Assembly (NCBI RefSeq): GCF_964355755.1
Contig: NC_092679.1
Coordinates: 2,914,001-2,978,000, forward strand
From: Antedon mediterranea
Taxonomy: Eukaryota; Echinodermata; Crinoidea; Comatulida; Antedonidae
Direction: 5' to 3'
Length of the DNA: 64,000 bases
The notes beneath the pieces are model-generated. The model was given only the letters and a program-made list of their open reading frames with translations, had not been told where the DNA came from and ran no database searches. Position numbers and translations under genes: made by a program. Below are positions 30,901 to 59,138 of this stretch, in pieces (position 1 is the stretch's first letter; every line of letters starts with the position of its first letter).

Positions 30901-33900
30901 TATTGTATTTTGTGTTCTAAATACTTTGTTGAGGTTTCCACTAGTTGCAGTCAAAGTTCTTGTAAAGTTAAGGTATACTGTTATGAAGCCTTAAAATACT
31001 TTGTTATCCAAAGGCTTTTGAGCCTTTCCATTTTCTCATCAAAATGGTTTCACTTGAATTCCTCATAAATAGTTGGCATTTTATTAGGAGACCACTACAC
31101 CAATAAGAACAGTGTAATTCTTAGAATAAAGTCAATCATTATTGAGTAACTTATCCATTGTGCGTTTGGTTCCATGTAATGAACACATCGCACACCTATG
31201 TTTTAAGGGCATTTCTCAACACTGACCGCATAATTATTCCAAAACTATCACTTATTTATTTAGATGGAATACAGTAGATACAACAAAACAAATTTCAAAG
31301 ACGTGTGTTTGAGGAGTTGGCTATGTTCTTTTTCAAACAGTAATTGATTTTAATTAGTTGCGACAGATTCTATAATTTTAGGCAAGTAACCAATTTTAGG
31401 CAGGCAGTGAATTTTAATAGGTGTCAAGTAGTTCAGATTGTTGGTGGCGAATATTAGGAATTTACTTGAGCTGCATATATAAAGTTATCCAGTAAAAATG
31501 GTAATAAATTGCATATCATACATATCTATACTTGTTAACAATAAACATATTTAATTGAACTGACTAAATTATGTCAAACTATCCGGGTCAAAATATGGAG
31601 AGAAAAATGTACAATAAAGTGTACTAAAAAGACCAACCTAAATCATTGAGAAAAGGTTGATTACAGCATGAAAGTACCATAAAAAATGATTGAAAAGAAC
31701 AAAGGATATCTACAATATTTATTTATTTACTTGTGAAAAATTAAAATTAATTTGTTGCGTCAATTTATTGTAATTCTGTATGAGGGGTCAAGTGTACCTT
31801 GTTCTGTTTTCATACAAATATCATGTTCCTATAATTACCCTGAACAAGGTGTTTATTTACCTTCAAAAGTTCACAAATATGATATCCTCCAAGCCAGACA
31901 TCATAGTCTCTCACCTGTCACATTTATCAATTAAAGAATTTCTGGTAATTGAGTCTAGCTTATACATGCATATTAATGAGGTCAGAGGTTGAAAGAAAAG
32001 TAAAGTTCTTGAAGATGATTCAAAGTTGATAAATATGATATCCTCCAAGCTAGACATCATAGTCTCTCACCTGTCACATTTATCAATTAAAGAATGTCTG
32101 GTAATTGAGTCTAGCTTGACATGCATATTAATGAGGTCAGAGGTTGAAAGAAAAGTAAAAATTCTTGAAGATGATTCAAAGTTAAGAAGCATTCCATGTC
32201 TAACGTGGCCTTCAAATCTTGGGGATTTATTTTGGGGAGCGTTTCAATATTTTTTGGTACGATATTTTATCGCGGGATGTCAATGGAGAATCAAGTGCAG
32301 GACTCGATAAACGCTATTTGGGCGGCCATTGCGGCATTAAACCGGAGGTTGTCTTCTCTCGAGGACCTAAATACTAAATTGTTAGAAGAAGCAACTGTAA
32401 GTTTTATTTACTATTTGTTATTAATGCACAAAACAACATTTGATTTCTCTTTTGTTTTATATCTTTAAAATTATAATTTTAACCTATTTAATTTTTTGCT
32501 AGAAATGTAAATTTTACATAATTATACACTTTTTAGATAATATATTGTGCAGTTGATGAAAAACATTGATTATTTAAAATACAGATAGTACCGGTACTGT
32601 AGTAATAATGACATCTGATTATATTTTTTACCAAAAAATAGAGCATTAAATTTGAAATTGCTGTAAAGTTTAAATTAAAACATGACCTTCCTCTAGCAAT
32701 ACTGTGATTATTTCTACTGAAACAACCCAAATTCATTTTGAAACATTTAAATTTTACCCTTATAATTTATATAGAAATATATTTTTAATCTTAATTTAAA
32801 ATTTTGTTTGATGAAGCATTAAAAATTGAAAGGGAATTAATAGAAGAATAATACAGTGTGCATTGCTTATTAGAACAAAGCACCAATTAATTAATTTAAT
32901 TAATTGCATCATAATATTTTCTTATTAACAATTCAGTTTAACCTTTATAATTATCTAATTACCATGATATAAATTTTTAATTTAAATTGCGTAATATTTT
33001 ATAAACGTCAAAGGAATAGTTATGTGTGTGTATGTATAGTAGCATACCAGAGATTCCATTTGATGAAAAGAGTTGACTTATCGAGTGTCTTCACGCATTA
33101 CTAAAAGATGAGTCAGTCATGTGACACACAAGACCAGAATGCATCAGCATGCGTGTCATATATCTTGTTACATTTTATCATAGCAGTATCTCATTGCCTA
33201 TTTATTTCATTACGTTGAAGGCTTCGTAAAGGTTAATCTATTAATATTATATTATTGCATATATTGTGTGTATTTTGAGCTTTAAATACTGAAGATGATA
33301 AACAAGTAGAGATTATATCTTTCTAAATACATTTTTACATTTGTTCGTTTATCTACTTATTGTAATACTAGATTAATCATGTATTTTTTTTTATATATAA
33401 TTGAATTCTTTTGAAGATTTTTAACAATTACAAAAGGCTAAAAACAAACAAACACCACAATAATCATGATAATGTGTCCTTTTCCCTAGAAAATGATTAT
33501 GATATTGATATCATCAGTAAATACAGTACAGTAGGCCATATGAAATAAAGGATTGAAATTAGTTAAAGTTAAAAAAGGTTTTCAAGAATAGGGATACCAT
33601 GAAGGTACCAACAGCAGATGATGAGATTAAGTGGCAATTGAGAGGGTTTAAAAATACAGTAACTGCTTACTCTATCATTGATCAACAATTTTCAAAAGAG
33701 ATAGTAAATTAATGTGATGGGGTAGGGATTGTAAAGATAAATAATAAAAAAGAAATATGGATATTAAATCCTTGTCCATCTTTAACATGTCACTGTGTAT
33801 ATAGCACTATGCACCCACTCTCCACCCGCCACACCCCAATTTCTCTTTTGAAATCTTGCAACCAAGTCTACAAGATTTCAATTCACCCATGTACAGTACA

Positions 33901-36900
33901 GTAGCTTGGAAGGGATGACAGTTGACCTTCATCTAGGCTAGTTTGCACAACACATTGGGTTAAACATCCTATTTTGCCAACTTCTTCCATTCTCAGTCAA
34001 GAAAACATGGATTACTAAACATACTTTCCCAATTAATGTAAAGATTGTGGCCTTAAAATGAATCAACATAGCAGTCTATTAACAACGCTCGTTGTTCAGA
34101 GGGTTTAATTAAATTCAGTACAATATCATGCATGTTAAGTTTAAAATATGAAATTTGTATTTAACAGGATTTAATTTGTGTTGAATTACACGCTAGACTG
34201 GGTACATAGCACGAGGGAATTCCGTAACATCTGTCTCTAATTTTACTGTATTCCTAATATTCATTTAAAAAAACTATCATCCGAAACCAAAATATTTTAT
34301 TTGAAAGTGCAGTATTGTCAGCAAACATTTTTAGGCTTTTTGGTATGAAGTAGTGGGAGGTGCTTTCCTTCTTTCTGTTTTTCATACAGTATGCATCTAA
34401 CAGCGAGTAACTTGCCAATTACACAATGGATAACCTATGTAATAATTTATCGTGCTTATAACCTAAGTCTCATCTGAGGCTTAGGAAGTGGAGTTGAAAG
34501 AGTTGCGAGTCACAACCCTGACACTACAGTAGGTCAGGATTGAAGCTTTGGATTGGAAGGCAAGCATGTAAACCACAAAGCTACAGTTCCACTACAAACA
34601 GTTTAATTAGGAAAAAACTTTTTGTAGTAGATATCAAATTTACCAATAATTTGCCATGTATTGTTAATATCTTTATGAATATTACTAATTCACAATGATA
34701 TTAATTATTCAAAGTGCAGTTAATACACTAAAAAAGCTGGTTGATATGATATAGTACACGTCTATTAAAACGCTAGTCTTTCATTTATTCTTGATACACA
34801 CAGATGGCCAGCATACCTAATGGTTATAGCCTAATGAATGTTTGGTGAATTATGTATTAAAAAATTCTCAACAGCAATGCTAAATAAAAACTGGGTGTTA
34901 CAGTATCATTTTATGAATTGGAAATGTAATAATAATGTAATAATCAGGAAGTATGTTTTGTTATAAAAATGTTTATTAAAATTGCAATCAATCATGTTGG
35001 ATCATAAGTAACATATAAATTAACAAAAATAATGATTTTAAAACATTTTTTATAGAAATTATATTATTTTCAGTAATATTCTATTATGACTGATAGTATA
35101 TTTTTTCTTGTTATTTAGGAAAATTGTAATTTATGTTTAATAGCTAATACTTGGACAAATTTCAAATTATCAATTTTTGCACATGTACTGTTTTTAAAAT
35201 TTCATACAACAATATTTTACGAGGGTGGTCCATCCAGTCGAAGCTGATCATTAGGGACCCTCATAAAAATACAATGTGACGAGACATAAACATGAAACAA
35301 TAAATATTGAATTGAAATAAATAGAATTTATAAAAATAAACAAAATAAAATAATGCACAACAAAATTTAGAATGAAAAATTATATAAATTAAATTTTAAA
35401 TTCCTTAATTTGTTTTGCAGAAATCCAAGGAAGAAGCAAAGGTTGCCGGAGGAGAAAATGGAATCCAAGAGAATGCAGTAGGAGAGGTTGCAACAAAGGT
35501 GGAGAATGACCCAGCAGCAGCAGCAGGTGGAGAGGCTGCATCACAGGTAAACAGTCTATGCTCATGCCTGCCAAGAATATTTAGAATTGCTACCTAAAGC
35601 TCAGTCTACACTATCAAAATAGTTTGACAAAAAAAGTGTGATGTGCCTAAATATGGTAGTGATGAGCCCACGATTGTGATGATCATCACTTTTTTTTGTC
35701 ACAAAGTTTGATAGTGTAGACAGAGCTTTAACTTGTATAAAGAGTCTTTTATATCTGTTCCGGCGCTCGAAAATCAACTTGAACGTCAATGTTTTGTTTC
35801 CACAACACTCCTTGCAGTTATGAGGCAATTAAAATATGCATAGCCGAGTGAAAATGAAGCATTGATGTCCAATTTGATTTGACGCATGCCAAAATAGGTG
35901 TGAAAGACCATTTAGCCAAGTAGAAGTCGTCTTAGGTTCTTCTTGCGAACAGCTACAGATATTAAAGAGATGTAATGAAAGTTTTTTAAGGGGTTTCATG
36001 CAAACATGATCCATAATTGTAGTTTTTTGAATTTTTTTTTTCAGTATTTAGAATTGACAAAATGCAAAACATATTTTCCAAACCTCCAAAAACTGATAAA
36101 CATTTGCATCCAATTCAGTTGGTATTAGGGACGTAGTTTGGTTGTTGATCATTAAAAATTGAATGCTGCCTATTAATGTCTTATTCAGCATAGAATCACT
36201 CACATTTTCTAATTGTACTTTTTGAAATTTTCCAAATAATTGGCCTCATTAACTGCACATTGTGCATAATTGAATAGCCTGTGTTTCTACTTTGCTGTTT
36301 GACATTAATTTGTAGTGAAGGTAATTTAAATTAATCAACCTTCCATCAGGGTCATTTTTCTTGTTATTTGTGGGTATTGCACTTAGTTGCCATAGAGAAG
36401 ATGCAATAGAAATGAATGTAAACAAAATTATATTTTGAGGATAAACTATAAACTGCCTAATAAACGCTACAAATGTCCTTTTTTATCTACTAGTAAAATT
36501 AGCAATACATTTAGCAACTGGAAATATGTGTGAAACATCTATTAGAATAAAATCTATCTATGAAAATTCTTTGTTTCCAGCAAAATGCAACAGAACCAGT
36601 GGCTGCAGATGTAAAGCCAGTGGAGGAGAAGAAAGAAGAATCAACTGAAGCTAAACCAGAAGCAGATGATTCACCAACAAAGACAGAGGAATCACCAGTA
36701 AAGGAAGAGGAATCACCAGCAAAGGCAGAGGAATCACCAGCAAAGGAAGAGGAACCACCAGCAAAGGAGGAGGAATCGCCAGCAAAGGAAGAGGAACCAC
36801 CAGCAAAGGAGGAGGATTCCCCGTCGGCAAAAGAAGAGGAGTCACCAGCAGAAGTAACAAAAGAGGAACCAACGGAACAAGCTAAAACAGATGATGTAAT

Positions 36901-39900
36901 AATAATTCATTATTTATTTATCTTTTTATGTATGGCATCAGCATTGTTTTTGTTGTTTAATAACACTTGAATGAACAATTAATTAATATTAATACTTAAT
37001 TTTTTGTATTTTTAGGAAAAGGTAGTGGAAATTCAAGAACCACAAACAATTGAGGAACCTGCTCCAGTCACTACAAAAATAGTTACTACACCAGCTGTAA
37101 CATCTGTATCATTGGAACAAAGACCAGAATCAATAGAGGCTGTAACAAAGGAGGAAACACACACATATGTTCCTCCAATCTTGGGCTCTGCATCAGTGGA
37201 ACAAAGGCCAATGTCAGTAGAGAATGTAACAGTAGTTGAAACTGTAGAAGAAGTTGCACCAGCTGAACCCACCCCAGTAGAAGAACCTACACCAGTAGTA
37301 GAACCTACACCAGTAGAAGAACCTACACCAGCAGAAGAACCTACACCAGCAGAAGAACCTACACCAGCAGAGGAACCTACACCAGCAGAAGAACCTACAC
37401 CAGTAGAGGAACCTACACCAGTAGAGGAACCTACACCAGTAGAGGAACCTACACCAGTAGAGGAACCTACACCAGTAGAAGAACCTACACCAACTGAAGA
37501 GCCTATACTGGCAGAACAAACACCAGTAGAAGAAGTTCTACCTGCCGAAGAACCGGCACAAGTAGAAGTACAGACACCGACTGAAGAGCCAGCTTTACCA
37601 GAACCTACAATGATCCCTGCTCTTGAACAGGTGACTGCTAATGAACCAACACAGATGGAAGAACCTAAATTAGTAGAACCTACTCCAGAACCAACAGAGG
37701 AACCAGAAAAAACTGCATCAGTAGAAGAAACAATACCAACAATAGAAATAGATGAATCTGGACCTTTAGACAATACTTCAGAAGACTCCATAGAAACACC
37801 TGCCACAGAGGAACCGTCCCAAACTGAACCAATTCCAGCTGAAGAATCAGCAACAGTAGAAGAACCAACGGAAATAGAAGAATCAGCACCAGTGGAAGAA
37901 TCAGCACCAGTGGAAGAACCAGCACCAGTGGAAGAACCTACACCAGTGGACGAACCTACACCAGTAGATGACCCTACACCGGTTTCAGAACCTGAACCAA
38001 CACCAGAGTTAATTGCTGTAGAAAATACAAATGGAGAAATTGACAAAAAACCAAATGACAAAGTTTCTGTGAACTTTATGTGGAATGAATCTGCAGATGT
38101 TGTAACTGTGTCTGGAAGTTGGGACAACTGGAGTGCCAAGACTCCCCTTGTTCATGAGTGAGTATCTCTATATTTAATTTGTGAATTTAAAGATTGAAAT
38201 ATTATCCAAATTTAAAAATTTAGAATTATGTTTTTGAAAGTACCTTGTCTCTGCTGTCATTTATGGTGAAGCATACGTTCAAACAAATCGTTCAATTAAT
38301 TCAGACTTTTTTGACTAAAAATGATTGATAATTCAAAAACTATGTTTTGTTGCTCATTTGTTGTTTTGCACTTATTTTTATATATTGTTTGTGTTTGCCT
38401 AATTTTATATTTAGTTGTAATCATTTGTTTGCATGTTCAATATTTTCTTCAGTGTTTTTTTTTTTAAAGCTGCAAATAAATCGTGTTTAATGCATTAATT
38501 ACAAGTGTACAAGAGTAAACAATTTGGCTTGTCTCTGCTCTTGGTTAAAAGAATACGCTGATAATGCTGTACTGTTACTCTGATTGCAGTAGACAATGTT
38601 CAACTGGTTAAGGGTTGTACAAAACCTAAACCAGGCCTTCCAAACTAAAACAAATAATCTGCAATGTTTTGATATACAAAAATATCCAAATAGTGCATAA
38701 CACTTCTATTTAGTCTTTACTACTAGGCCCATTTTGTTTATCAGAAATTTGGATAATCTGTTTACAAACAATGTTCAGCATATGGCACATGTTGAATGTG
38801 CCTCTCATAACAAGGCAATCTAACAACAGCATGCTGAGCTCCAGAGATCAAAGGATTTATCTGTGGCTGCAACATAATCAGTTCCACACCGCTTAACAGA
38901 TACCCTGTGCCACATAGAATATGTACAAAGTACAGTCCTGTTGGTATTTGTTGCAGCCAGACATAAGATCAAAGGACTGTTGCGAGTAGAGTTCCTATTT
39001 GGCAAGGCAAGCTCAGTGTCCTGTTGTTAGATTGCCTTGGTCATACCAATTGTTTACTGTAGATGCTGATGAATTTTATGTTTGAATGTATTTTTTAAAC
39101 AATGCTTTAATAAAGTATTTCCGAAAGTTCAATTTTCAAAGTTGGCAATGTGAAATATTCCATTGAATGTTCTATTCAAAAAAATTAAAAGCTAATAAAT
39201 TAATGCATTAAACAAAGTTATAGATATTGACTGACTTCAGCTTTTAGTAATAAGTTCTGCACTTCTCATTTTTGTTCAAGTTTTTATTTGTTATTTATAT
39301 TTAAAACTAAAATTTTAATCTAAAAACAACATTAACTGTTCAACTTTACATACAACAAATTAAACATTTCATATAACTTTTTACTAGAATCAATTCAACT
39401 CTCTCATAACTAATTATCTAATGAAAATTGCTGTTCTTAACATTTTTTTTTTTCATTTCGCCCAGAGTTTTGCTTTAAATCACAAATCAAAAACATTTTA
39501 ATAACACTGTGCTGTAATTTCACTAACTGTTCATTTGTTACGTAGTGGCATGCACCATCTGTCCACCATGATAGCTCTATCGCAAGGTGAATACGAGTAT
39601 AAATATATAGTAGATGGTCAGTGGAGATGCGATAACTCCAAGGTAATTAGCATACGCAAGACAGGATGTATGAGGGATTCAATGCCAAACAAAACTGAAC
39701 CTGTTATTGCGAAAAAAGAATTTAAATCTATGATGTTGTTTTACGATTAAACAAAAATGTTGTCATTAGTTTTCACATTAGGTTTCATGTTACAGTGGTT
39801 TTATGGAAAACGAAAATTTGGCAAAAGTCCAGTTTCAGTTTTGTTGGCATTGTTTCCTTTTAAAGCATGAGGCATGAAATGTGCATCCTCTCCTTACGAA

Positions 39901-41898
39901 TGGGCATTTTTTTTTTTTTTTTTTTTTTTGTGTATATAATAATGAATAATAACCAATTGGGTTCATGGACCCCATTTTTTCCACAGTGAGGGTAAATTTA
40001 TTTTGAGTATTGATTTAGCGGAGGGTGAATACAACTACAATTTCACTGTTGATGGCGAAACAAAGGTAGACACTGATCAGGTGAGGGAATTGTCCAATGA
40101 CGATTCAGTATTTCATCGTTTTCCATAGCATGCATGTTTGAAACTTCCTTATGGCATTTTGTTTAGTCTTGTTCTGATGTAGCATGTTTTGTTCATTTCT
40201 TTTGTAGTGCAGTAGAACTCCTCTAAAGAGAACTCCTTCAGAACAATTCTTATTTAGGAGACTTCTTCAAAAGACAATAAAAGTGTCCCCTTAATATGGG
40301 CTGGCGAAGTGTAAAAATAAAACATATATCGAAATGATATTATATATCATTTCACAGAAAAGTATCCCCTTAATGGGAGTGTCCCCTTAATGGGAGTGTC
40401 CCCTTAATGGGAGTGTCCCCTTAATGGGAGTTTCCCCTGAAATATGTACTGACAGAAATGTTAAAATGTTTTGTATTCATTTTTTATAAAAGTTTCCCAA
40501 AAGAGTTCTACTGTAGATTTTTAATTTAATATTAACTTTACATTATTGACTTTGCATTCTTTATCTCATTCGAATTTAATACAAATTGTTTATTATTATA
40601 AAATCAATTTTATCATGATCAAAAATACATTTTAACAATGCTTTTGATTACATTTACTTTATAAAGCTCTATAACTATCAAACTTTATGTGACAAACAAA
40701 ATGTTATGTGCCCAAATATGGAAATGATGATGTCTCATATCACTACCATATTTGGACATATCACTACCATTTTTGGGCACAAATTTTGTTGATAGTGTAG
40801 ACATACCTTAACTTCTATTTAGAATCAGTTTTAATGTTCCTTTTAGATTTAGCAAATCTTTTCATTTCTTTTGTTGCTTTTCTAACTACATGCATCATAC
40901 TCCTTACATCGCTGTTGTGATAGTTCCAAGGACTACACCAATCAAAGTTTTGTGCATTTTGTAAAAGCCAAATACAACACAATTTTCGTTCAGATTTTTG
41001 TACAAAATATCCTCCACTCTGTCTTTTTGAAATATGATATTTGAAACAGAAAGAATTGAAATTTTTTTTTTTTATTCTGTAAAAGTTTTGGCAACAGAAA
41101 TATGGTGTTTGTCCAAATTTTAAATTAACATAATTATTTCAACAATTTGTGGTTTAGCTTGACGGCAGAATTTTGGCTCTTTGCATGATGTGTGCATTTT
41201 AATTTTTTTAGTAATATTGATAACAATTGCGTTAACTAAATTCAGTAGATGTAGTGCGTTTTTTAGTATTGTACTTAATTGAAGGTAGGAATCATTCTAA
41301 AAGTTATTTAGTATTAGACAATTTTATCATGACCATTTGCACTACAATTTGTTTTTTGGTTTTTTTTAACCTGCTGTCGCAGTTGTGTTTCACAGGACAT
41401 CTCCATCTTCCATTCTGTTTTTGGAACAAGTTTGTATCTTTAATATGGTACCCCAAACTTGCTTTTGTGAGAGTTTTAAAAATTGCATTAAAATTACAAC
41501 AAAGGGTAAATAATTGAAATGGAGAAAACAATGCAGTGTAAATCTATGTTTCCTTAATCTCGGTTTACACTATCAAACTAGTTTGCAAAAAAAGTGTGAT
41601 GCGCCGAAATATGGTAGTGATATTCCCAAATGGTAGTAATATGACATCATATCCATATATGGGCACATCACAATTTTTTGTCACATAAAGTTTGATGGTG
41701 TAGACAGAGCTTAATCCTAATTCGGCTTGATCAGCAGTTATGGCCTTGAATCAAAAGTTATTAATGAAAATTGTCCATAAATATAAAAGCACATGTTATG
41801 TACAGTATGTTAATGCATTTTATTTATCTTTTTTTCAGCCAACAGTAGAAGCAGAATTTGGATTGAACAACGTAATCCAGGTGTCACAGTCCTCCTAA
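18879..41898 (+). CDS. CBM48 glycogen-binding protein, AMPK-beta paralogue with alternative exons
   Basis: The longest myristoyl-type path joins 18879-18995, 35421-35546, 36581-36895, 37016-38157, 39546-39642 and 41839-41898 (618 aa), all with GT-AG borders and matching phases. The N-terminus MGNKLGKGK fits an N-myristoylation motif. It is followed by a Lys-rich and an Ala/Glu stretch, SPAKEEE repeats, then dozens of EEPTPV/EEPTPA hexapeptides. About residues 530-618 form a CBM48 like that of AMPK beta: FMWNES, VSGSWDNWS, GEYEYKYIVDGQW, NNVIQV. Trp558, Lys586 and Trp593 align with the beta1 glucan-binding residues; the beta-type Thr148 has no clear equivalent. The ASC domain that binds AMPK alpha/gamma is absent, so it should not join the kinase complex in the usual way (inference). 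Alternative first exons (23900, 32196) and an alternative CBM48 exon (39987) are listed separately. Likely role: a tethered glycogen-associated scaffold, function unproven. Confidence 0.8.
21190..21490. repeat. Minisatellite, about 20-22 bp unit
   Basis: Roughly a dozen imperfect units of the type GGTGGGCTTACTGTATTCCA. The array is open in two frames (GLFQGG-like translation) only because the unit lacks stops. It is not a gene. Confidence 0.85.
22703..22853. mobile_element. MITE family 2 copy
   Basis: Diverged termini ATTGGTTGCCACTGG and TGACCAAGTGCGAAC. The internal blocks CATTGACCAATCAGAAGCG and ATGATTGGTCAAAATTACTT are typical of the family. Confidence 0.75.
23190..23390. repeat. Minisatellite, 19-bp unit
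   Basis: About nine units of AGAATGGAGGTGTCCCC or AGAATAGAGGTGTCACC in a row. It sits about 500 bp upstream of first exon B. Confidence 0.9.
23849..23857 (+). promoter_or_regulatory. TATA box candidate for first exon B
   Basis: TATATAAAA lies 43-51 bp upstream of the ATG at 23900, which would put initiation about 20 bp before the start codon. In an AT-rich region this could be chance. Confidence 0.35.
23900..23923 (+). CDS. Candidate first exon B of the CBM48 gene
   Basis: ATG with a purine at -3 opens eight codons, MGTSLDKM, and ends at ATG|GTAAGTATG, a strong donor in phase 0, the phase needed to splice to 35421. A TATA-like box lies upstream. Gly2 is present, but Asp6 makes myristoylation doubtful. 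The exon is very short, so the call rests on the donor, phase and promoter only. Confidence 0.35.
24239..24347. mobile_element. Small palindromic element
   Basis: The left end TGTAACAACTTGTAACCAGG is mirrored by CCGGTTACAAGTTGTAACA at the right. Total 109 bp, with inner partial pairing and no ORF. Seen once here. Confidence 0.7.
25189..26366. mobile_element. Long foldback element with arms of about 300-340 bp
   Basis: The left arm (25189-25530) and right arm (26061-26366) are reverse complements along most of their length. Matching blocks from outside in: CCCATGTACTTCACGGTTTT with AAAACTGTGAAGTACATGGG; TTTCGTTTGGGGACGGTAGA with CTACCGTCCCCAAACGAAAG; AGAAACCAACA with TGTTGGTTTCT; and ATTGTGGTTTAGCC with GGCTAAACCACAAT. 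The loop of about 530 bp has no ORF. It lies in an intron of the CBM48 gene. Confidence 0.85.
27333..28158. mobile_element. PIF/Harbinger-like DNA transposon, non-autonomous
   Basis: 826 bp with terminal inverted repeats GGGCCTGTTTCTAT and ATAGAAACATGCCC (one mismatch), flanked on both sides by TAA (27330-27332 and 28159-28161). A 3-bp TWA duplication is characteristic of PIF/Harbinger. It carries a decayed Myb/SANT-like ORF on the minus strand and no transposase. The intact SINE at 52360 serves as an empty-site comparison and confirms the borders. Confidence 0.85.
27396..27833 (-). pseudogene. Remnant Myb/SANT-like protein of the Harbinger-like element
   Basis: A 145-codon open frame. Its middle, KDHNNVSGN followed by YPFYDEMDAILGDRA, is the hallmark C-terminal half of Myb/SANT-like DNA-binding domains found in Harbinger-type accessory proteins and their domesticated relatives. 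The upstream tri-helical part is not recognisable, so the frame appears truncated or rearranged. In autonomous elements the partner protein delivers transposase to DNA; none is present here. Confidence 0.65.
29640..30075. repeat. Minisatellite, 21- to 24-bp unit
   Basis: About 18 units of the types ATTAATCAAGGGGACACCCCT and ATTCATCAAGGGGACTACACC plus CCT. The 21-bp subset between 29900 and 30020 is almost perfect. The open frame across it (repeated HQGDYTP) is a by-product of the repeat length. Spacers are absent, so this is not a CRISPR array. Confidence 0.92.
31868..32185. repeat. 156-bp tandem duplication upstream of first exon C
   Basis: The block from AAATATGATATCCTCCAAGC (31875) to GATGATTCAAAGTT recurs at 32031 with about a dozen differences. 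The second copy ends about 10 bp before the ATG of first exon C, so the duplicated sequence is its proximal promoter or 5' leader. Confidence 0.9.
32196..32396 (+). CDS. First exon C of the CBM48 gene (membrane-anchor type)
   Basis: 67 codons ending GCAACT|GTAAGT in phase 0, as needed to join 35421. It encodes a hydrophobic segment at about residues 8-26 (WGFILGSVSIFFGTIFY), a likely signal anchor. An amphipathic, Leu/Ala-rich helix of about 35 residues follows (SINAIWAAIAALNRRLSSLE), probably a coiled coil. The resulting isoform would be about 646 aa, membrane-anchored by its N-terminus. This architecture resembles vertebrate STBD1, which has an N-terminal anchor and a glycogen-binding domain, though STBD1 uses CBM20. 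The ATG context is weak (T at -3). Confidence 0.55.
34379..34595 (-). mobile_element. tRNA-derived SINE copy
   Basis: Read on the minus strand it begins GTGGAACTGTAGCTTTGTGG and continues with a box B-like AATCCTGACC region, then GACTTAGGTTATAAGCACGA, matching the plus-strand copy at 55912. Anticodon-arm pairing is degraded, so it is not a functional tRNA. Confidence 0.75.
35421..35546 (+). CDS. CBM48 gene, first shared exon
   Basis: 42 codons, phase 0 on both sides (TTTTGCAG|AAA and CAG|GTAAAC). Encodes a low-complexity acidic Ala/Glu/Gly stretch (KSKEEAKVAGGENG, DPAAAAGGEAASQ). All candidate first exons can splice into it without changing frame. Confidence 0.75.
35596..35729. mobile_element. 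MITE family 1 copy
   Basis: 134 bp, with CTAAAGCTCAGTCTACACTA and GTGTAGACAGAGCTTTA ends flanked by TA. Shortened interior. Confidence 0.85.
36581..36895 (+). CDS. CBM48 gene, SPAKEEE-repeat exon
   Basis: 105 codons, phase 0 on both sides (TTTCCAG|CAA and GATGAT|GTAATA). Encodes an acidic domain with about nine units of the form ESPAKEE or EPPAKEE, expected to be disordered. The donor is weaker than the others. Confidence 0.75.
37016..38157 (+). CDS. CBM48 gene, EEPTPV-repeat exon and start of CBM48
   Basis: 1142 bp, entering in phase 0 (TTTTTAG|GAA) and leaving in phase 2 (CATGA|GTGAGT). Most encodes Glu/Pro/Thr hexapeptides, with a core run of perfect 18-bp units at 37285-37497 and a second run at 37860-37990. 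The last 33 codons hold the first CBM48 strands, with FMWNESADVVTVSGSW and DNWS. Confidence 0.82.
37265..37497. repeat. Coding minisatellite, 18-bp unit
   Basis: Some 12-13 in-frame units of the type GAAGAACCTACACCAGTA, alternating Val and Ala at the sixth codon. Because the unit is a multiple of three, copy-number changes keep the frame, so length polymorphism is expected. The antisense strand is also open for 368 codons, which is an artefact of this composition. Confidence 0.9.
38811..39039. mobile_element. Palindromic DNA element with 5-bp duplication
   Basis: Perfect 19-bp terminal inverted repeats, CAAGGCAATCTAACAACAG and its complement, lie just inside matching TCATA pentamers at 38805-38809 and 39041-39045. 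The interior also shows the symmetric pair GATCAAAGGA and AGATCAAAGGAC. No ORF. It lies in the intron between the two halves of the CBM48 domain. Confidence 0.8.
39546..39642 (+). CDS. CBM48 alternative exon 1 (Trp-containing)
   Basis: 97 bp, phase 2 in and phase 0 out (TTACGTAG|T and AAG|GTAATT). With the preceding two bases it encodes 33 residues including MHHLSTMIALSQGEYEYKY and IVDGQWRCDNSK. It matches the AMPK beta exon at 55797-55890 in position, phases and sequence. Lys586 and Trp593 correspond to glucan-contacting Lys126 and Trp133 of human beta1. Confidence 0.8.
39987..40080 (+). CDS. CBM48 alternative exon 2 (Trp-less)
   Basis: 94 bp with intact borders (TTTTCCACAG|T and CAG|GTGAGG) and the same phases as alternative exon 1. 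It encodes EGKFILSIDLAEGEYNYNF then TVDGETKVDTDQ, clearly homologous to both alternative exon 1 and the AMPK beta exon. The glucan-contact Lys is Asn and the Trp is Thr. Joining both exons would read AAG TGA at once, so they are probably mutually exclusive. Confidence 0.68.
40340..40440. repeat. Minisatellite, 19-bp unit
   Basis: Four to five units of TCCCCTTAATGGGAGTG. Similar CCCCTTAATATGGG sequence is present at 40288-40306. It lies in the intron after the Trp-less exon. Confidence 0.88.
40663..40810. mobile_element. MITE family 1 copy, last intron of the CBM48 gene
   Basis: The left end ATAAAGCTCTATAACTATCA has a small deletion in the terminal repeat. The right end is TTGATAGTGTAGACATACCT. 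Core intact. Confidence 0.8.
41556..41712. mobile_element. MITE family 1 copy, just before the last CBM48 exon
   Basis: The ends read TCTCGGTTTACACTATCAAA and GATGGTGTAGACAGAGCTTA. It lies about 125 bp upstream of the final exon at 41839. Confidence 0.82.
41839..41898 (+). CDS. CBM48 gene, last exon
   Basis: Phase 0 after TTTTTCAG. Encodes PTVEAEFGLNNVIQVSQSS and a TAA stop, matching PTVDNNVGSVNNTINV of the adjacent AMPK beta. The protein ends right after the last CBM48 strand, so the ASC domain is missing by design rather than by frameshift. Confidence 0.82.
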   Translation, partial: PTVEAEFGLNNVIQVSQSS

Positions 41899-42049: not shown

Positions 42050-42055
42050 AATAAA
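42050..42055 (+). terminator. Candidate polyadenylation signal of the CBM48 gene
   Basis: AATAAA about 150 bp after the stop codon. Another lies at 42239. The choice between them cannot be made from sequence alone. Confidence 0.35.
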
Positions 42056-50347: not shown

Positions 50348-53300
50348 ATGGGCAACACCAGTGGTAAAGAGAAGGGTAAAGATGGTTTGCCTATGTCGCC
50401 GAGCAAGGAGACACCGTCATTTGATTTTAATCCGCGCAATCATCAGCATCGTAAACTTTTCCAGCAGTTGTCGTTAGATGATAATGACTTATCGCAAGCA
50501 AGTTTTAAGGTAACAATTGTTTTTAGGGTGAATAAAATGAAATTTCTATTCTCATTGTCATCAGCATAATAGCATAATACACTGTGGTGTTAGTTTGGTA
50601 CGGTATCTTTCTAAATGAATATAAAGTTAAACACACAATAATAGCTTTCATTTACACTAGATAGCAGATTTGAATTGGGAAAAAAAAGCATCCTTATGCT
50701 TCGGAAAAAATGTTAATTACTTTGCTTCTGCTTTCTAATAATGACCAGTTAAGTAATTAAATGCACTATTAGAATAGCCTAGGGTGTTCTAAACAATTTA
50801 ACCTTCTCCCTACGCACATTTTAATAGACCCCCTATGTCGGCCTATATTTTTCCTAGTACATTGTTGTGACCTTGGCAGATGACCAGAAGGTGAACACCA
50901 ATTATCAGGGATGCGCTTAGAAATTCAGTTTATAAAAATATCAGATACTGTTTTCTTCTTTTCTTTCTACTGTTAAGAAAAGGAGATAAATTTAATATGA
51001 TTTGTTCTTCTGTAGCTTGACAGCATATCTGCCAGCGCTTTGTTTACGGATTCTCGTTTTAGTAGATCATATTTTATAGTTTAGTTGCGCAGAGTATTTT
51101 TAGAGTCAGTCTACCACTCAGCTATTCCAAGGGAAGTGGGTGAGGATCTTCAACACTGATTCTATTGTTGTGTTCTTGGCACGAATCCAACATTATTGTC
51201 CAGATCCCTTCGGGATGTGATTCAATAATAATAGGCAACATTATGTTTTACTTAAAAACAATATTCAAGGACTTCAATTGAGTTATTTATAATCAATCAT
51301 AACCAATGGAGTATAAAATTAGGGTGTATTTTTAGCTTGAATATTTCATCATTATACTGTGTAAGGATCTATCTTATATTATACAATGAAATGGATAACA
51401 AACATTTTAAAGCCCTGTCTACACTATCAAACTTTATGTGACAAAAAAATATGGACATGATGATGTCATATCACTACCATAATAATAATAATAGTACGAA
51501 TTTGTAACTCGCCAATTCCAGCAGTAAGTGATCAAAGAGAGTACCATATTTGGGCACATCACACTTTTTTTGTCAAACTAGTTCGATAGTGTAGACAGAG
51601 TTTTTAAACAGTTAAAATAATGCCAAACAAACTTGTGGATGGATAACCAACTAAACCCACACAAATACATATTTAAAACGGAAAAAAATAATTACCCAAT
51701 TCTGTACTTTATCTGGTTTATCAATATTTGTAATACATACAGTGTCACATGAATACTGTATTACAGAATTTGCCTATGATGATACAGTATCTAGAATCCG
51801 CTAAAAATATATGTTGTGTTTTATTCCATGTTAATTGCTTTTAATTGAACTATTTATTTCATCATTATTTTAAGAGGGTGACCCAGCCAGCGTGAGCTGA
51901 TTTTACTCAGCCCTCAAACCAACATTGGTTTAAGCTCTGTCTATACTAACAAACTAGTTTGATGTGCCCAAATATGGTAGTGATATGAAATCATCGTGTT
52001 TATATAGGCTACTCGGTGTAGTTTGATAGTGTGGACAGAGCTTTATAACTTATAGTACAGTAGGCCATCTTCATTCCGTTGTATATTTCACATCTTATAT
52101 TTTCACATACATGTCTGTTTGTTTTAAAGGATATTCATAGGTCAGAGTTCACAAGACCCAGAGCTAGTACTATTGTTGAACAACCTGTTCTCAACCTAAA
52201 AGCCTTACCCACTGTGTTCCATTGGAATGGAGGAGGCAAAAATGTGTTCCTATCAGGGAGCTTTAACCAGTGGAAGACCAAGATTCCAATGTCTAAAAGG
52301 TATTTGAAAGATTTTATTTATCCTAGAAGGCCTAGTTATGATCAGTTGCTGTGATGTACCAGTACACCGGGGTAACCCCCTACTCGTCTCGAAAGATGTA
52401 CTAGGTTCTTTAAAGTGCACATGAGCTAGATGTGTGCACTGGACCTACGGTTTATAGTCCTTATCCGAGAAAACTCGTTCTACCACCAGAACCATGGAGC
52501 GAGTGAGCCTCGAACCTTTGCCAATGTTATAGCTATGTAATTACGGTTCCACTGTCTTAACCGCTTGGCCACTAGAAGGAATATAATTTCACACTGTCCC
52601 TATGAATACCGTATCATATCTGGCTGCTGAGGTCAGTATTGAGAAGGTGATAATATAGATTTACTGTAGCTACTCAAGAGTGCTCAAGAGCCTCCTCTCC
52701 TCAAAAGCTAAGAAAAACATCTTTCTAGGCAATGGTGATGACAGTAAAGATGAGGATGAATTAAAGAAAAGAGAAATAGACATTTTAAAATGGACCGGCC
52801 GTTGGAACATAAATTTCTCCATCTGATTTGTGTGCTGTATGTACAGTATGTGTACCCTAATATTTTGCATTATAATCTATTATACACTTACTAAAATAGC
52901 AAATTTAATAATAAAACACAGTTAGCGCTGAATTCCCAATATTATTGATTAAATCCAAGGTGATTTTTATACTTGGTTTACATTTTATTTTATATAAACA
53001 ATTTTTTTTCAAGTTACAATTGTGTTTTATGAATAATAAATGAAAATCAAACATAGCATCTTCGCCGTATTGCCTGAAGATATTCTTCGAAATGAATAGG
53101 TTACAATACAAGATACATTATTCCCATTGTAGATATTGGTTGACTTATTCACCATTGATTCAATTATGAAGTTGGTTTTAGACTGTTTGTTGGTAATAAT
53201 ACTACTATATAATCAATATTGTATCTTGGCAGTCACAACATTATATATTTCTGTTTTAATTATCAATTCAAAGCCATTAGATTCTAATTAAATGTTTTTT

Positions 53301-56300
53301 TGTAAATATTTTGTAATAATTTTTCTTATGGAAGATATTGGGAATAAGCTGTTCCATCAATACTCTGAATTTCTTAAAGTTCTGTCTACACTATAAAAAC
53401 AAGCACGAATGTGCGATAGTCGGGGTACAGCAAAGAAGCTATGATGACGTCATAAGACGCGATGTGACGTCACATACACATCAATAACCTCGCTACCAAA
53501 TATTTTATACGGCTATACGGTACCATCTTCGAGACGTCATATGGCTGCATCCGGTTTGAAATTTAAAAATCCGGCTCTATAGCTTTGAGGACATCACTTT
53601 TTTTGTCAAACTAGTTTGATAGTGTAGGCTGAAAGCTGTACTATCAAACTTATGTGATAAAAAGAGTGATATGGACAGGATGACATCACATCACTACCAT
53701 ATTTGGGCACATCACACTTTTTTGTCAAACTAGTTTGATAGTGTAGACAGAGCTTTTGGCTAATTTGATGTTGTTTGTGTACAGTGTGTTTGCCTGTTTA
53801 AGAATTATTGATCAACAATTAATCATAGCTAATGAAGTTCGTTAAAGCGTATTATATAACACCTAAATAAATTCCTGTCATTTGATTGGACGATTGTGGG
53901 TCACATGGCGTGCAATAGTACGCACTATTAAACGATCGTTTAATAGTACTTTTTGAAACATTTTTGTGTACGAAAAAAAAAAACGTCTCGCGGATGAAAA
54001 AAAATCTAGTACACAAATTATCCTATGATATGGCTCTGTACTGTGAAATACAACAGCGCCACCTGTCGTCTGGCCTCAGTTTCGTTTTCTTTTAAACATT
54101 TGTGTACGAAAAAAAACATTCATTATTTGTATACCATGGCGAGATCACTAACCTACCCATACTGTAGTTTATCAACACAACCTTGTGTAAAAAAAATGTA
54201 TATCTCTCTACTGATAAAGTGGATTTCACAGCCTTTATACCGTTTTTAAGAACTACATACAATGTTGGAGGTTGTGTTAATAATGCAGGCCTTTTCTTTT
54301 GATGTGAGCAAGTGCGATCACTCATCTAACACACTCCTAAACTGCACTTTAGGAGTGTGATTTACAACACACTTAAATTTGGTAAACTGCTACTCACCAA
54401 AATACAAACAGCACACCTACAGCACCCTTGAATGTATTGACGAGTGCAATTTGTAGCACACCTACAATTTTAAGGCTCGATAACGATAAATTAATGCAGC
54501 TAATACCCACCCACGACAACAACAAGTGCATGTGTGTTTTAATTACATTTGACGGAATTTGATTCCTAGTTCACATGTTTACTGACGTGGACATGATCAC
54601 ATTTCACAAATCTATATTTCAATAATGCTTCTGTAGAAAAATAAACTTGCCGTATAGATTTTCTCGATGTATTGTTATTATGAGATAGATTAATATGCTC
54701 TAGAAATCTGCACAAGGTCTTGTGTTTGATATTAACACTTAATGCTGATCCTAAAAGGCTGCCTTTGGCGCTAATATCGAGCTGTTGCACTTACAGTACC
54801 AAGGTTTTTATAAAATATTAGTATAACAATAGCTAGGTTCATGTTTGCTAGACATCTCCTGTTGTTTTAAATTTTTGATAATGATATGATGATATTTCAT
54901 AATTAATTATGTTTCTTAATGGTTATTCATTGTTATTGTTATGCTCTAAGAAAACAACCAAAGATCATCTTCACATATTTAATCCTGCATCTCTTTTTTA
55001 AATTTTTTAGATTGAAATTGTATATATTTTTTATATCTTGTATCATAAATTGTGTTACTTACTGTTGGATGCGTATGAAATAAAATGTTTAAAAAAATTG
55101 GTTAAAGTTAATGATTTTTACCAGATTAAACCCTTCATGATTTATACTATAGTTATTCCAATTTGCAATACTTTGCAAAATTTTAAATGAAAGTTGCCAG
55201 GTCAGCATTTAGCAAAATAATGATGATTACAGTATCATATTGATTGCCTTTAAAGGAAGCATATAGAACATTGTTATCTAATCTAGAGACAAGCCTCAGC
55301 CACAAACAAGCATTGCTTTCAGTTTCATTTTTCCTGAGGAAACCCTGTTTTGTGGTCATGTAGTGAAGGTTACATCCAGGGGCCTACTCCAGTGGATAGC
55401 TTTATCAAAGCATTCATTATTGACCAATCATTGAACTTGACCTTGTTGTTGAAATAGCAGGTCAATGACCAGGTGTGAGGTACATAGCAGCGATTACTCA
55501 CATGGATCTGTTTTGAATAATTTGATTTTTATGTCCACACTATCAAAGTAGTTTGACAAAAAAAAGTGTGATGTGACCAAATATCATGGTAGTGATATGC
55601 TCACATATGGAAGTGATATGGTATCATCATGTCTATATATGGGCACATCACATTTTTTTGTCACATAAAGTTTGATAGTGTAGACAGAGCTTTTAATGAC
55701 TTGAAATTCTGCAGAATACATTTGATATTTTTGAAATATAATGCATTGCAACTAAAATAAAATTGGTGACTGCATTAATATTTTTGTTTTTTATAGCACT
55801 GGTGAGTTTGTGACCATAGTGGAGCTTCCAGAAGGCAAGCATGAGTACAAGTTCAACGTGGACGGTCAATGGACTCACGATCCTAAGCAGGTAATACACA
55901 ACATAAACGTAGTGGAGCTGTAGCTTAGTGGTTAACGTGCTTGCCTTCCAATCCCAACGTCTGGGGTTCAATCCTGACAAAGTGCCAGAGTTGTCACTCA
56001 CAACTTTTTCAACTCCACACTTATACTGGGTTTATAAGCACGATAAATGATAAATAGTTTATCCATCCTGTAACTGGCGAGTTTTTGCTCGCGTATGAAA
56101 TATTTAAAAAAATTAATACAAAATAATGAATGGTCATATGTGACACTGTATTACGGAATTTGTGGTGATACAGTCCAGTGAATCTGATGCAATTTCAGTT
56201 TCTTTTTTTAAATATAAATGATAAAATTTGAAAGTGAATAACATTTCAAATCATAAAATTGGTTGATTAAAACTATATTGTAATTTAAATAACTTCTAGA

Positions 56301-59138
56301 TGCATTAGTGTTCAACTTCATCCAATTATTACTGATAATAGTTAGTGGCACCATTCATTAAAGAGTGACCCTACAGATATCATTCATCTCCTATTACATT
56401 TACCATTTTCAAAAGCTATCAATATTTCCTATATTGTGTAATTAGAATCCAAAGTTATTTAAACTCGTTCTTTCTAAATTGAAGGGGAGCTTCGGGGAGG
56501 CATGTTTAAAACGAGAAGTTTGCGTTATTAGAGCCGTTTAATTATAGTGTCTGAGCAGGCTTGTATACTTTACAGACTAAATTAACCTTTTGATTTGGCC
56601 TCGGACTACAGCGATTTCTGAATTAGAAGTAGTTGAGTGATATTATGCAACTGTGATTTAGTCAGTATATGATTTGTATGAACACTGAAATGAAAGGATT
56701 TTAGCTAACCCAAAATATAAAATAAAGGAATATCAAATTGCCAAAAATATTGTGTAACAGATATAATGTTTTCTGATTTGTATTGCTTTTAAGATGGTAT
56801 TTCTATCATCAGATAGTCTGGTAGACAGCTTAGTATTTAAACTAGAATAGGTATGTGATATGTTAGCAGGCGGCCCCTATAGGGCAGTTTATATGCTTAA
56901 TAGTATCATGTTGTGGGCTAAGTGCCAATTGAAAATAGGATTCAAATGTGCTTGCTGCCTAGCTAAGCTTGAAATGTAACCCATGATCATACTAATGTAC
57001 TGTATCCCTACCACCTAGGGTTCTGCAACAGCAAAATTTCAGTATTTTGGCTCTGTACCAACATTTAGAAGTTTAATTTAGACTGTCTGGTTTTTGATGA
57101 TTTTTTTTTATTGGCTTGATACCAGCACATTTGTTCCTATCTGAAATGTGACAAGAACTAACAGTATACCATTGACCAATTAGATCACTTACCGCCAGTT
57201 GGTATGCTAACAGATTTGAACCAATGATTTGATGACAAGATGGCTGGCACCAAACTACAGTACCTTTCTCAGTTTGCCATTGCAATATAATGTTTATAGA
57301 TATGAAATATATTAGTTTTCACTTTGTTTTTGTACCTACCAGCAATAGTGATAATTTTACTGTATATCAATTATATCAATATTCATATACGTGTTGGTAT
57401 GTTCATTGTGTCATGATAACTAGCGTGTACGTCTCAGACACGGTGTTCTTTTACTGTTGTAGCTGCAAGTTTGGTAATGTCAATAGCATTTTCTAATTCA
57501 TTGTTTAATTGTATGACCATTCTATAGTACTAGTGACTGGTTGCCTAGGTTCTAGGCCCTTCTGTAGTGTTACTTTATTTTTACAGTATTATATCAAATA
57601 TCCCTTCTAAAATCATTTTTTAGACCACGCCCGAATAAATAACTGACGAAAGATGTACTGTAATAACCGGAAGTTCTGTTGTGTTTTTTTCTCTTTTAGC
57701 CGACTGTGGATAATAACGTAGGTAGTGTAAACAACACAATTAATGTGATGAAGTCTGACTTTGAAGTTTTAGAGGCGTTAGCCATTGATTCTATTAACAG
57801 TAGCAGTACTGCCCATCAGAATGTAACAAAAGGTATGCTCTTTAGATTTCAACATAAATTGATATGGTAAATTACATCTAACAACAGGACACATTTTCTA
57901 TCAAAGTTTGATAATGTAGACAGAGCTTTTTGACTGTTTTAAAGACAATAGAATGAGTAACCATAACAAGCACAAACATTTATTCCCAAGTAAGCCAGCC
58001 AGCCAACTGCAAAATTAACTGATTTTAAATTTCAATTTGTTTGTAGGAGAGAGTAGTTCACCACCAGGTGACTATAGTCAAGAAATACCTAAAAGGATTT
58101 CACCCGAGAAGTCTGGAGGTCCTCCAATTCTTCCACCACATCTCCTGCAGGTGATGTTGAATAAAGACACAGGTCTACAGGTTAGTGAAACAGTTCAAAT
58201 ACAGATTTGATAATTAATTGTTAAGATGATTCGATGGCAACACCTTGGCAACCATGGTTTCTCACCATCATGCCAGGAGTGCCAGTCAGCAACCACGCCC
58301 TGGGTGGGGAGGGAGGTTGCATCGCCAACCAGCGTGATAAGAACCGTAGATAAGGAATCATTGGTTGTAAAATGGAATGTTCTCTTGTCTGTGTTCTCAT
58401 GTGAAATTGTGAAAAACTCTCATTCTCTCTTTCCTACACTATCACACTAGTTTGACAAAAAAGTGTGATGTGCCCAAATATAGTAGTGATATGACATCAT
58501 CATGTCTATATATGGGCACACCACATTTTGATAGAACTTTAGCTTCCTATAAAACACTACATTGAGTCTGTATGCTATTTTATTTTTATAGTACGATCCT
58601 TCGTTGCTTCCTGAACCAAATCATGTGATGTTAAACCATTTATATGCTCTGTCTATTAAGGTTAGTATCACCTCAGTATGACCTCAAATGACCTTTTGGA
58701 GGGTACAGTAGAACTCCTCCCATTAAAGAGACATTTTGTTGGCTCCTGAAGAGTTGTACTGCAATCTTAATTGCCAATTTACACAGACAAGCGGTAACGG
58801 TAAGCAGAAAACCGTGTAGCTTGTCCCACGTAGAATCTGTATATATCCCAAGCGGAAGCCGCCTGTCTGCTCCACCTTATTCATAAGGAATAACATAGAT
58901 TCTATGTTACCGCTCGTCTTTGTAAATTGTCCTTAAGAGTACAGTATAAATAAATCGGACCATAATAATGTTTTCCATGGGGGATCTCATTTATATTGTA
59001 GGTTTTTTTAACATTTTTAATAGAATTTGTCTTACTTTGTTTTAATTCTTTGCCATGTAGGATGGTGTGATGGTTTTAAGTGCAACACATCGGTACCGCA
59101 AGAAATATGTTACAACAGTAATGTACAAACCCATATAA
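50348..59138 (+). CDS. PRKAB: AMP-activated protein kinase subunit beta, seven exons
   Basis: Exons 50348-50509, 52130-52299, 55797-55890, 57700-57832, 58047-58180, 58592-58660 and 59061-59138 join in frame to 279 residues, close to the 270-272 of vertebrate beta subunits. MGNTSGKEK is an N-myristoylation site. CBM48 (about residues 77-160) has HWNGGGKNVFLSGSFNQW, Lys129, DGQW (Trp136) and GSVNN; Trp102, Lys129, Trp136 and Asn153 correspond to the glycogen-contacting residues of human beta1. Ser111 in KSTGEF matches the beta1 Ser108 site at the kinase/CBM interface. The ASC domain closes the protein: GGPPILPPHLLQVMLNKDTG, LLPEPNHVMLNHLYALSIKD, ATHRYRKKYVTTVMYKPI. The subunit scaffolds AMPK alpha and gamma and anchors the kinase to glycogen and membranes. 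Introns carry several family 1 MITEs. Confidence 0.97.
51409..51603. mobile_element. MITE family 1 copy with an insertion
   Basis: The ends are AAAGCCCTGTCTACACTATC and TCGATAGTGTAGACAGAG. At about 51482-51541 there is a foreign stretch with GTAACTCGCCAATTCCAGCA, similar to the reverse of the tRNA-derived SINE tail at 56075. A SINE fragment has evidently landed in the element. Confidence 0.8.
51932..52043. mobile_element. MITE family 1 copy, AMPK beta intron 1
   Basis: 112 bp with ends TTAAGCTCTGTCTATACTA and GATAGTGTGGACAGAGCTT. The core is shortened. It ends only about 90 bp before exon 2. Confidence 0.8.
52360..52578 (-). mobile_element. tRNA-derived SINE, second family
   Basis: On the minus strand it starts AGTGGCCAAGCGGTTAAGAC (box A-like) and continues to box B GGTTCGAGGCTCACTC, followed by a tail with CCACCAGAACC in reverse. 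The head resembles a Leu- or Ser-type tRNA. The downstream body matches the Harbinger-interrupted copy at 27292-28275. Confidence 0.78.
53376..53756. mobile_element. Two joined family 1 elements
   Basis: The left element (53376-about 53630) has family 1 ends, AAAGTTCTGTCTACACTATA and TTTGATAGTGTAGGCT. Its middle is unrelated, with TGATGACGTCATAAGACG and CCGGTTTGAAATTTAAAAAT. The right element (about 53634-53756) is an ordinary copy ending GATAGTGTAGACAGAGCTTT. They share their boundary. Confidence 0.78.
55531..55693. mobile_element. MITE family 1 copy, AMPK beta intron 2
   Basis: The left end is weakened (ATGTCCACACTATCAAAGTA) and the right end is intact (GATAGTGTAGACAGAGCTT). It lies about 100 bp before the CBM48 exon at 55797. 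Confidence 0.83.
55912..56115 (+). mobile_element. tRNA-derived SINE copy
   Basis: The head is GTGGAGCTGTAGCTTAGTGG then TTAACGTGCTTGCC (box A region), with box B GGTTCAATCC at 55965. The body contains TTTATAAGCACGATAAATGA and CTGTAACTGGCGAGTTTTTG, then an A-rich tail. It lies directly behind the AMPK beta CBM48 exon. A reverse copy is at 34379. Confidence 0.85.
57900..57929. mobile_element. MITE family 1 terminal remnant
   Basis: Only the right end remains, TTTGATAATGTAGACAGAGC. It is in the AMPK beta intron between exons 4 and 5. Confidence 0.65.
58432..58540. mobile_element. MITE family 1 copy, both ends eroded
   Basis: The core reads AGTGTGATGTGCCCAAATAT and TGACATCATCATGTCTATAT. The left repeat is reduced to CTACACTATCACACTAG and the right to TTTTGATAGAACTTT. 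It lies just before AMPK beta exon 6. Confidence 0.75.

Follow-up and report, generated by a model that had tools for sequence, protein, structure and literature searches.

Does a crinoid decide by splicing whether one of its proteins holds on to glycogen? The question is raised by a locus of Antedon mediterranea, studied here in a window of 64,000 nucleotides (contig NC_092679.1, positions 2,914,001 to 2,978,000), in which two adjacent exons, A and B, each encode the second half of a CBM48 carbohydrate-binding module. A preliminary description proposed that only one exon of the pair can be used at a time, and that the choice would switch glycogen binding on or off. Judged from its sequence, the pair is real, old and maintained, and it belongs to a neighbour of the AMPK beta gene.

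Exon anatomy and the neighbouring AMPK beta gene

The gene lies on the forward strand and opens with a probable first exon at 32196..32396, which runs as an open frame from an ATG at 32196 to the donor ACT|gtaagt in phase 0; its 5' end is predicted, an in-frame TGA precedes this ATG by 21 nt, and no further ATG falls between them. Exon 2 (36581..36895, ttccag|CAA..GAT|gtaata, phase 0 in and out) starts a Glu/Pro/Lys-rich linker and has a weak donor, matching 5 of 9 consensus letters. Exon 3 (37016..38157, phase 0 in, phase 2 out) encodes a Glu-Pro repeat linker followed by the first half of the CBM48 (PF16561 match of 28.1 bits), carries the Trp equivalent to W100 of rat AMPK beta1 within the motif SGSWDNW, and ends at 38157 with ..CAT GA|gtgagt.

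Downstream lie exon A (39546..39642, 97 nt, ..gttacgtag|TGG..AAG|gtaatt), an intron of 344 nt with GT-AG ends (39643..39986), and exon B (39987..40080, 94 nt, ..ccacag|TGA..CAG|gtgagg). Exon A encodes the second half of the domain in a Lys/Trp version (YKYIVDGQW) and exon B in an Asn/Thr version (YNFTVDGET); each is 3n+1 long, is entered in phase 2 and left in phase 0, and begins by completing the codon GA|T. The last exon (41839..41898, ..tttttcag|CCA..TAA), common to both isoforms, supplies the end of the CBM48 (PTVEAEFGLNNVIQVSQSS, then a stop) and is followed by AATAAA signals at 42050, 42239 and 42243. The predicted spliced proteins, of 604 residues for isoform A and 603 for isoform B, differ only over 31-32 residues of the CBM48 fold. 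All six junction coordinates given in the preliminary description proved exact, and both of its motifs read as it quoted them.

Its assignment of the exons to an AMPK-beta-like gene did not hold. A separate AMPK beta (PRKAB) gene occupies 50348..59138 on the same strand, beginning 8.4 kb downstream of the last exon of the A/B gene. It has an N-terminus reading MGNTSGK.. and a CBM48, and its C-terminal AMPKBI exons close with ..HRYRKKYVTTVMYKPI-stop; this gene model is partial, with positions 1-25 of the 71 in the AMPKBI profile unmatched. Like AMPK beta (PRKAB1/2), the A/B gene encodes a domain of the Pfam family CBM48/AMPK1_CBM, but it has neither the AMPKBI/ASC domain nor the AMPK beta N-terminus, its N-terminal half being different, and it ends 8 residues past the conserved NN of the CBM.

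Genome-wide searches covered 18 contigs and 354 Mb, in which a let-7 gene, a marker of bilaterians, and 38 Wnt exon matches point to a bilaterian animal; those with PF16561, PF04739 and protein queries can miss weak or split exons. PF04739 gave two exon matches, both in the AMPK beta gene; with AMPKBI/ASC matched genome-wide only in this downstream gene, the A/B gene is ruled out as AMPK beta itself. PF16561 marked four exon places, all in the A/B and AMPK beta genes, exon B not being among them, and the spliced CBM of isoform B returned only three exons of its own gene (E <= 1), missing exon A and AMPK beta. A single AMPK beta gene was detected in the genome by these searches, to which split exons can be invisible, and tblastn within the window detected no second copy of the exon in that gene. 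The two genes have CBM48 introns at the same two positions and in the same phases (SK|S, phase 2; Q|PTV, phase 0), which points to derivation of the A/B gene's CBM from an AMPK-beta-type gene, and most simply it would have arisen by local duplication.

Elsewhere in the window we noted, on the reverse strand, a cytochrome P450 gene (13261-16114), two open frames of which match PF00067 at 302.9 and 49.3 bits, and a portion of a gene resembling peroxiredoxin (63678-63794; Redoxin, E 8.7e-7), which we take to be peroxiredoxin-5. There are also short tandem repeats in open frames at 29590-30236 (+) and 21123-21499 (+), reading ..HQGDYTPI.. and ..GLFQGGL... A short inverted-repeat element, likely a MITE, is present in several copies (about 40674-40811, 41565-41714, 51413-51604, 53630-53758 and 55530-55690; ..GTCTACACTATCAAACT.. 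/ ..AGTTTGATAGTGTAGACAGAGC..).

Homology, constraint and probable either/or joining of exons A and B

The proposal that A and B are the same half of a CBM48 with equal phases is borne out by the exon anatomy together with homology. Against a PF16561 cut-off of 26.8 bits, the spliced isoforms score 84.3 (A) and 78.0 bits (B), and in the PDB each finds AMPK beta chains, with a best E of about 6e-16. Taken singly, the exons reach 36.1 bits (A) and 26.2 bits (B, E 9.4e-6), the latter a little short of 26.8, which is a cut-off for whole proteins; tblastn of the window also aligned exon B with its counterpart in the true AMPK beta gene (E 1e-5). Aligned with each other, the two exons agree in 14 of 31 residues and in 48 of 93 bases, with a pS of 1.08, which is saturated, and a pN of 0.34 for a pair as short as 31 aligned codons. 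Each is identical to the AMPK beta exon at 12 of 32 residues; B therefore lies about as near to AMPK beta as A does, with nothing to suggest that the constraint on it has been relaxed. Global scores to AMPK beta place B nearer (68 vs 56 for A), local scores A (73 vs 69 for B).

In neutral simulations carried to an equal DNA distance, 13 of 5000 runs starting from A and 7 of 5000 starting from B attained the protein score seen between the two exons; for the scores against the AMPK beta exon, the count was 0/5000 for B and 0/5000 for A. An alignment-fixed version of the simulation gave 1 in 20,000 and 0/20,000. Since simulated drift rarely keeps the similarity between A and B, exon B would be old and would not have been drifting for long, and by this measure both exons look old and maintained.

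The splice signals call for a more cautious reading. The donors of A and B are equal, at 8/9 consensus letters each, the acceptor tracts are similar (11/16 pyrimidines in A, 12/16 in B), and a branch-point-like CTAAC stands ahead of exon A at 39523. The preliminary description had counted intact splice sites in favour of both exons; they are present, yet they make a weak argument, given how often such segments occur. Open segments of the form AG-[88-103 nt, 3n+1]-GT in the same phase number 94 in window positions 1-32000 on the + strand, and 12 in the 3,681 nt between exon 3 and the last exon (38158-41838), A and B included. As such segments are common in this A+T-rich DNA, an open frame with splice sites carries little weight: it is the homology between A and B that goes beyond chance, not the splice sites alone.

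The abundance of these segments also speaks for a different account, which we consider improbable, in which one exon only is in real use. Its partner, intact though it still looks, would be either a copy that fell out of use recently or a relic that is seldom spliced. After five neutral changes B was still open in 797 of 1000 simulated copies, and a very recent loss of its use may leave little trace. This account has to be set against the saturation of synonymous change beside a conserved protein, the near-consensus donors of both exons, and the equal identity of A and B to the AMPK beta exon.

A third CBM exon copy was rejected within the window: sensitive tblastn with seven exon peptides returned A, B and the AMPK beta exon, and the only other match under E 0.01 was gapped (24822-24905, E 0.003); its CAG is not followed by a GT, and it matches nothing in Pfam. 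Past exon B, a 20-nt stretch at 40190-40209 (+) resembles the acceptor of exon A at 39528-39547 (+), with 85% identity; it runs into repeat-like sequence in which tblastn found no CBM similarity, and could be what is left of a third copy, since lost, or a chance likeness.

Turning to how the exons can be joined, splicing A to B yields AAG|TGA, just as the preliminary description had read it; this is an immediate stop, 91 nt before the last junction, and leaves room for one exon only in a full-length protein. Skipping both exons yields ..H D Q Q followed by a stop in the last exon. The pair thus has the features by which mutually exclusive tandem-duplicated exons are recognised, being adjacent homologues of similar length and equal phases, with a product that is broken when both are used or both are skipped. 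The human mutually exclusive tandem exons described in PMC5740500 are alike in adjacency, homology, equal phases, lengths other than 3n and a frame broken by joint use, and there exons not divisible by three occur in 377/629 clusters, making frame incompatibility common. Unlike those human pairs, A and B would alter the ligand-contact residues of a carbohydrate-binding module. From this frame logic we regard mutually exclusive use of A and B as likely, and we infer that both forms are really spliced.

Two other causes of exclusivity were rejected. Steric exclusion does not fit an A-B intron of 344 nt, set against the limit of 50 nt given for exon-pair splicing in PMC5740500, and neither does U2/U12 incompatibility fit sites that are all GT-AG with no U12-like donor by eye. 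Competing intron RNA structures gained no support: the best duplexes between three intron stretches were no stronger than those of shuffled sequence, being reached by 39, 45 and 58 of 60 shuffles, in a crude pairing test that covered duplexes of up to hundreds of bases and about 700 nt per outer intron, and that short docking sites could escape. The intron before exon A holds an inverted repeat at 38811-39039, with 30-nt arms that are 90% complementary and 169 nt apart.

The frame of exon A stays open past its donor to a stop at 39750, with an ATTAAA at 39746, and read-through could in principle make A an alternative terminal exon as well, giving a truncated CBM. We give this very little credence, because the donor of A is near-consensus (8/9), its phase exactly fits the last exon, and hexamers like ATTAAA are frequent in A+T-rich DNA.

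We favour, as the probable reading overall, an old exon duplication with either/or splicing in the gene of an STBD1-like tether, with A as the binder and B as a weak binder or non-binder. One exon would have been tandemly duplicated long ago, in a gene sharing its CBM48 with the adjoining AMPK beta. Exon 3 would then be spliced to A or to B, and on to the last exon, giving two full-length proteins. Transcripts containing A and B together, with their stop 91 nt ahead of the last junction, would be expected targets of nonsense-mediated decay, and those with neither exon would encode a protein without the second half of the CBM.

Glucan contacts and the proposed switch

In rat AMPK beta1, glucan is contacted by W100, K126, W133, L146 and T148 (PMC2642990), and N150 is named as a further contact (PMC4032982). 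Placing Gly or Ala at the five former positions is reported to reduce binding markedly (PMC2642990), and in another account W100G and K126Q abolished glycogen binding and W133L disrupted it partly (PMC6274970). We assigned these contacts through alignments to human beta2, carrying the rat beta1 numbering over by counting. By this assignment, isoform A keeps the equivalents of W100, K126, W133 and N150, and isoform B those of W100 and N150 only, with Asn at K126 and Thr at W133. Through the shared last exon, both isoforms have F at L146 and are missing T148, from which isoform A may bind glycogen less well than AMPK beta does.

For the switch proposed in the preliminary description, the difference at K126 and W133, kept in A and lost in B, stands. 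The wording 'on or off' was an overstatement, as B keeps the W100 and N150 equivalents, the last exon also affects A, and the plant AMPK beta relative AKIN beta 2, which has both Trp and is without K126/N150 equivalents, is described as binding starch (PMC4032982); this last case makes 'much weaker in B' safer than 'off'. Moreover, B differs from AMPK beta at 20/32 aligned residues, so that the changes at K126 and W133 alone are no evidence of selected loss. On the residues present, a choice between A and B as a glycogen-binding switch is plausible.

The same residues could be read as tuning, an interpretation to which we assign a modest chance: A and B would be mutually exclusive and both used, but the choice would adjust the domain, in its preference for ligand length or branching, its partners or its stability, with no on/off switch. 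It is consistent with the full CBM signature of B (78 bits) with its W100 and N150 equivalents, with an exon end in B (DTDQ|PT) that is nearer to AMPK beta (DPKQ|PT) than is the DNSK of A, with starch binding by AKIN beta 2 despite its missing K126/N150 equivalents (PMC4032982), and with the statement in PMC5740500 that human exon pairs modulate, and do not considerably alter, function. What speaks against tuning is that B is without both Lys126 and Trp133, when single changes at either are reported to abolish or weaken binding in rat beta1 (PMC2642990, PMC6274970). Under the favoured combination of a binder and a weak binder or non-binder, isoform A should bind glycogen and isoform B is predicted to bind it weakly or not at all.

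An STBD1-like layout and its possible consequences

The predicted protein consists, in order, of an N-terminal hydrophobic segment, a heptad coiled coil, a 448-residue Glu/Pro-rich linker and the C-terminal CBM48. Exon 1 encodes the hydrophobic segment WGFILGSVSIFFGTIFY between Lys7 and Arg26, the most hydrophobic 19-residue stretch of isoform B, with a Kyte-Doolittle mean of 1.39 that is borderline for a membrane helix. It also encodes a 4-3 heptad, identified by eye, of V34, I38, I41, I45, L48, L52, L55, L58 and L62. The linker (residues 68-515) is 27% Glu and 19% Pro, with a net charge of -111. At E <= 1, the exon 1 sequence matched itself alone in the genome, and residues 1-271 matched nothing in Pfam.

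This order recalls STBD1, for which three features are described: a hydrophobic stretch at the N-terminus, on which ER targeting depends, a putative leucine zipper, and a CBM20 at the C-terminus (PMC4076837, PMC5358331). Common to both proteins are the hydrophobic stretch at the N-terminus, a long variable middle and a CBM of glycogen-binding type at the protein's end, and where STBD1 has its putative leucine zipper in the middle part, the A/B protein has its 4-3 coiled coil. The module itself is different, CBM20 in STBD1 and CBM48 in the A/B protein, and a genome search with PF00686 (CBM20), weak for split exons, gave no match. Mouse Stbd1 is myristoylated at Gly2 (PMC5358331), whereas the A/B protein starts Met-Ser and is without Gly2. 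An Atg8-interacting motif, another feature of STBD1, was not found in the A/B linker; isoform B fits W/F/Y-x-x-L/I/V at three places, residues 9, 20 and 42, all of them in the hydrophobic segment or the coiled coil. We know of no counterpart in STBD1 to an exon pair within the CBM. As far as its predicted sequence goes, then, the A/B protein resembles STBD1 in layout, not in membership. With this layout it would probably be a membrane-anchored glycogen tether, of which isoform B could be a non-binding partner, possibly through coiled-coil pairing with isoform A.

Studies of STBD1 suggest what such a partner might do. Overexpressed STBD1 that has lost the CBM20 tryptophan is reported to bind no amylose, to be less stable and to make contact no longer with its partners glycogen synthase, debranching enzyme and laforin (PMC4076837). 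For mouse Stbd1, a non-myristoylatable form is described as overlapping preferentially with mitochondria only if it binds glycogen (PMC5358331). If isoform B acts like such mutants, exon choice would, by analogy, set location and partners besides binding.

Exon pairs tune channels, motors and enzymes. Among the papers listed on paired exons or splice variation in connection with carbohydrate binding, glycogen binding or AMPK beta, in a scope that left most subscription journals outside, none was seen to concern an exon pair in a CBM48. The most far-reaching version of our reading, which we offer tentatively and think rather unlikely as a whole, is that a bilaterian built the equivalent of STBD1, a membrane glycogen tether, from the CBM48 of the adjoining AMPK beta and placed it under RNA control, with one form that grips glycogen and an intact twin that does not, and that could pair with it by coiled coil, freeing glycogen from membranes.

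If true, A and B would parallel in nature the point mutants made in the laboratory for glycogen-binding studies of AMPK and STBD1, set in a glycogen tether with a binding domain other than that of STBD1, and the purpose of tethering glycogen to membranes would become testable in an animal that splices its tether.
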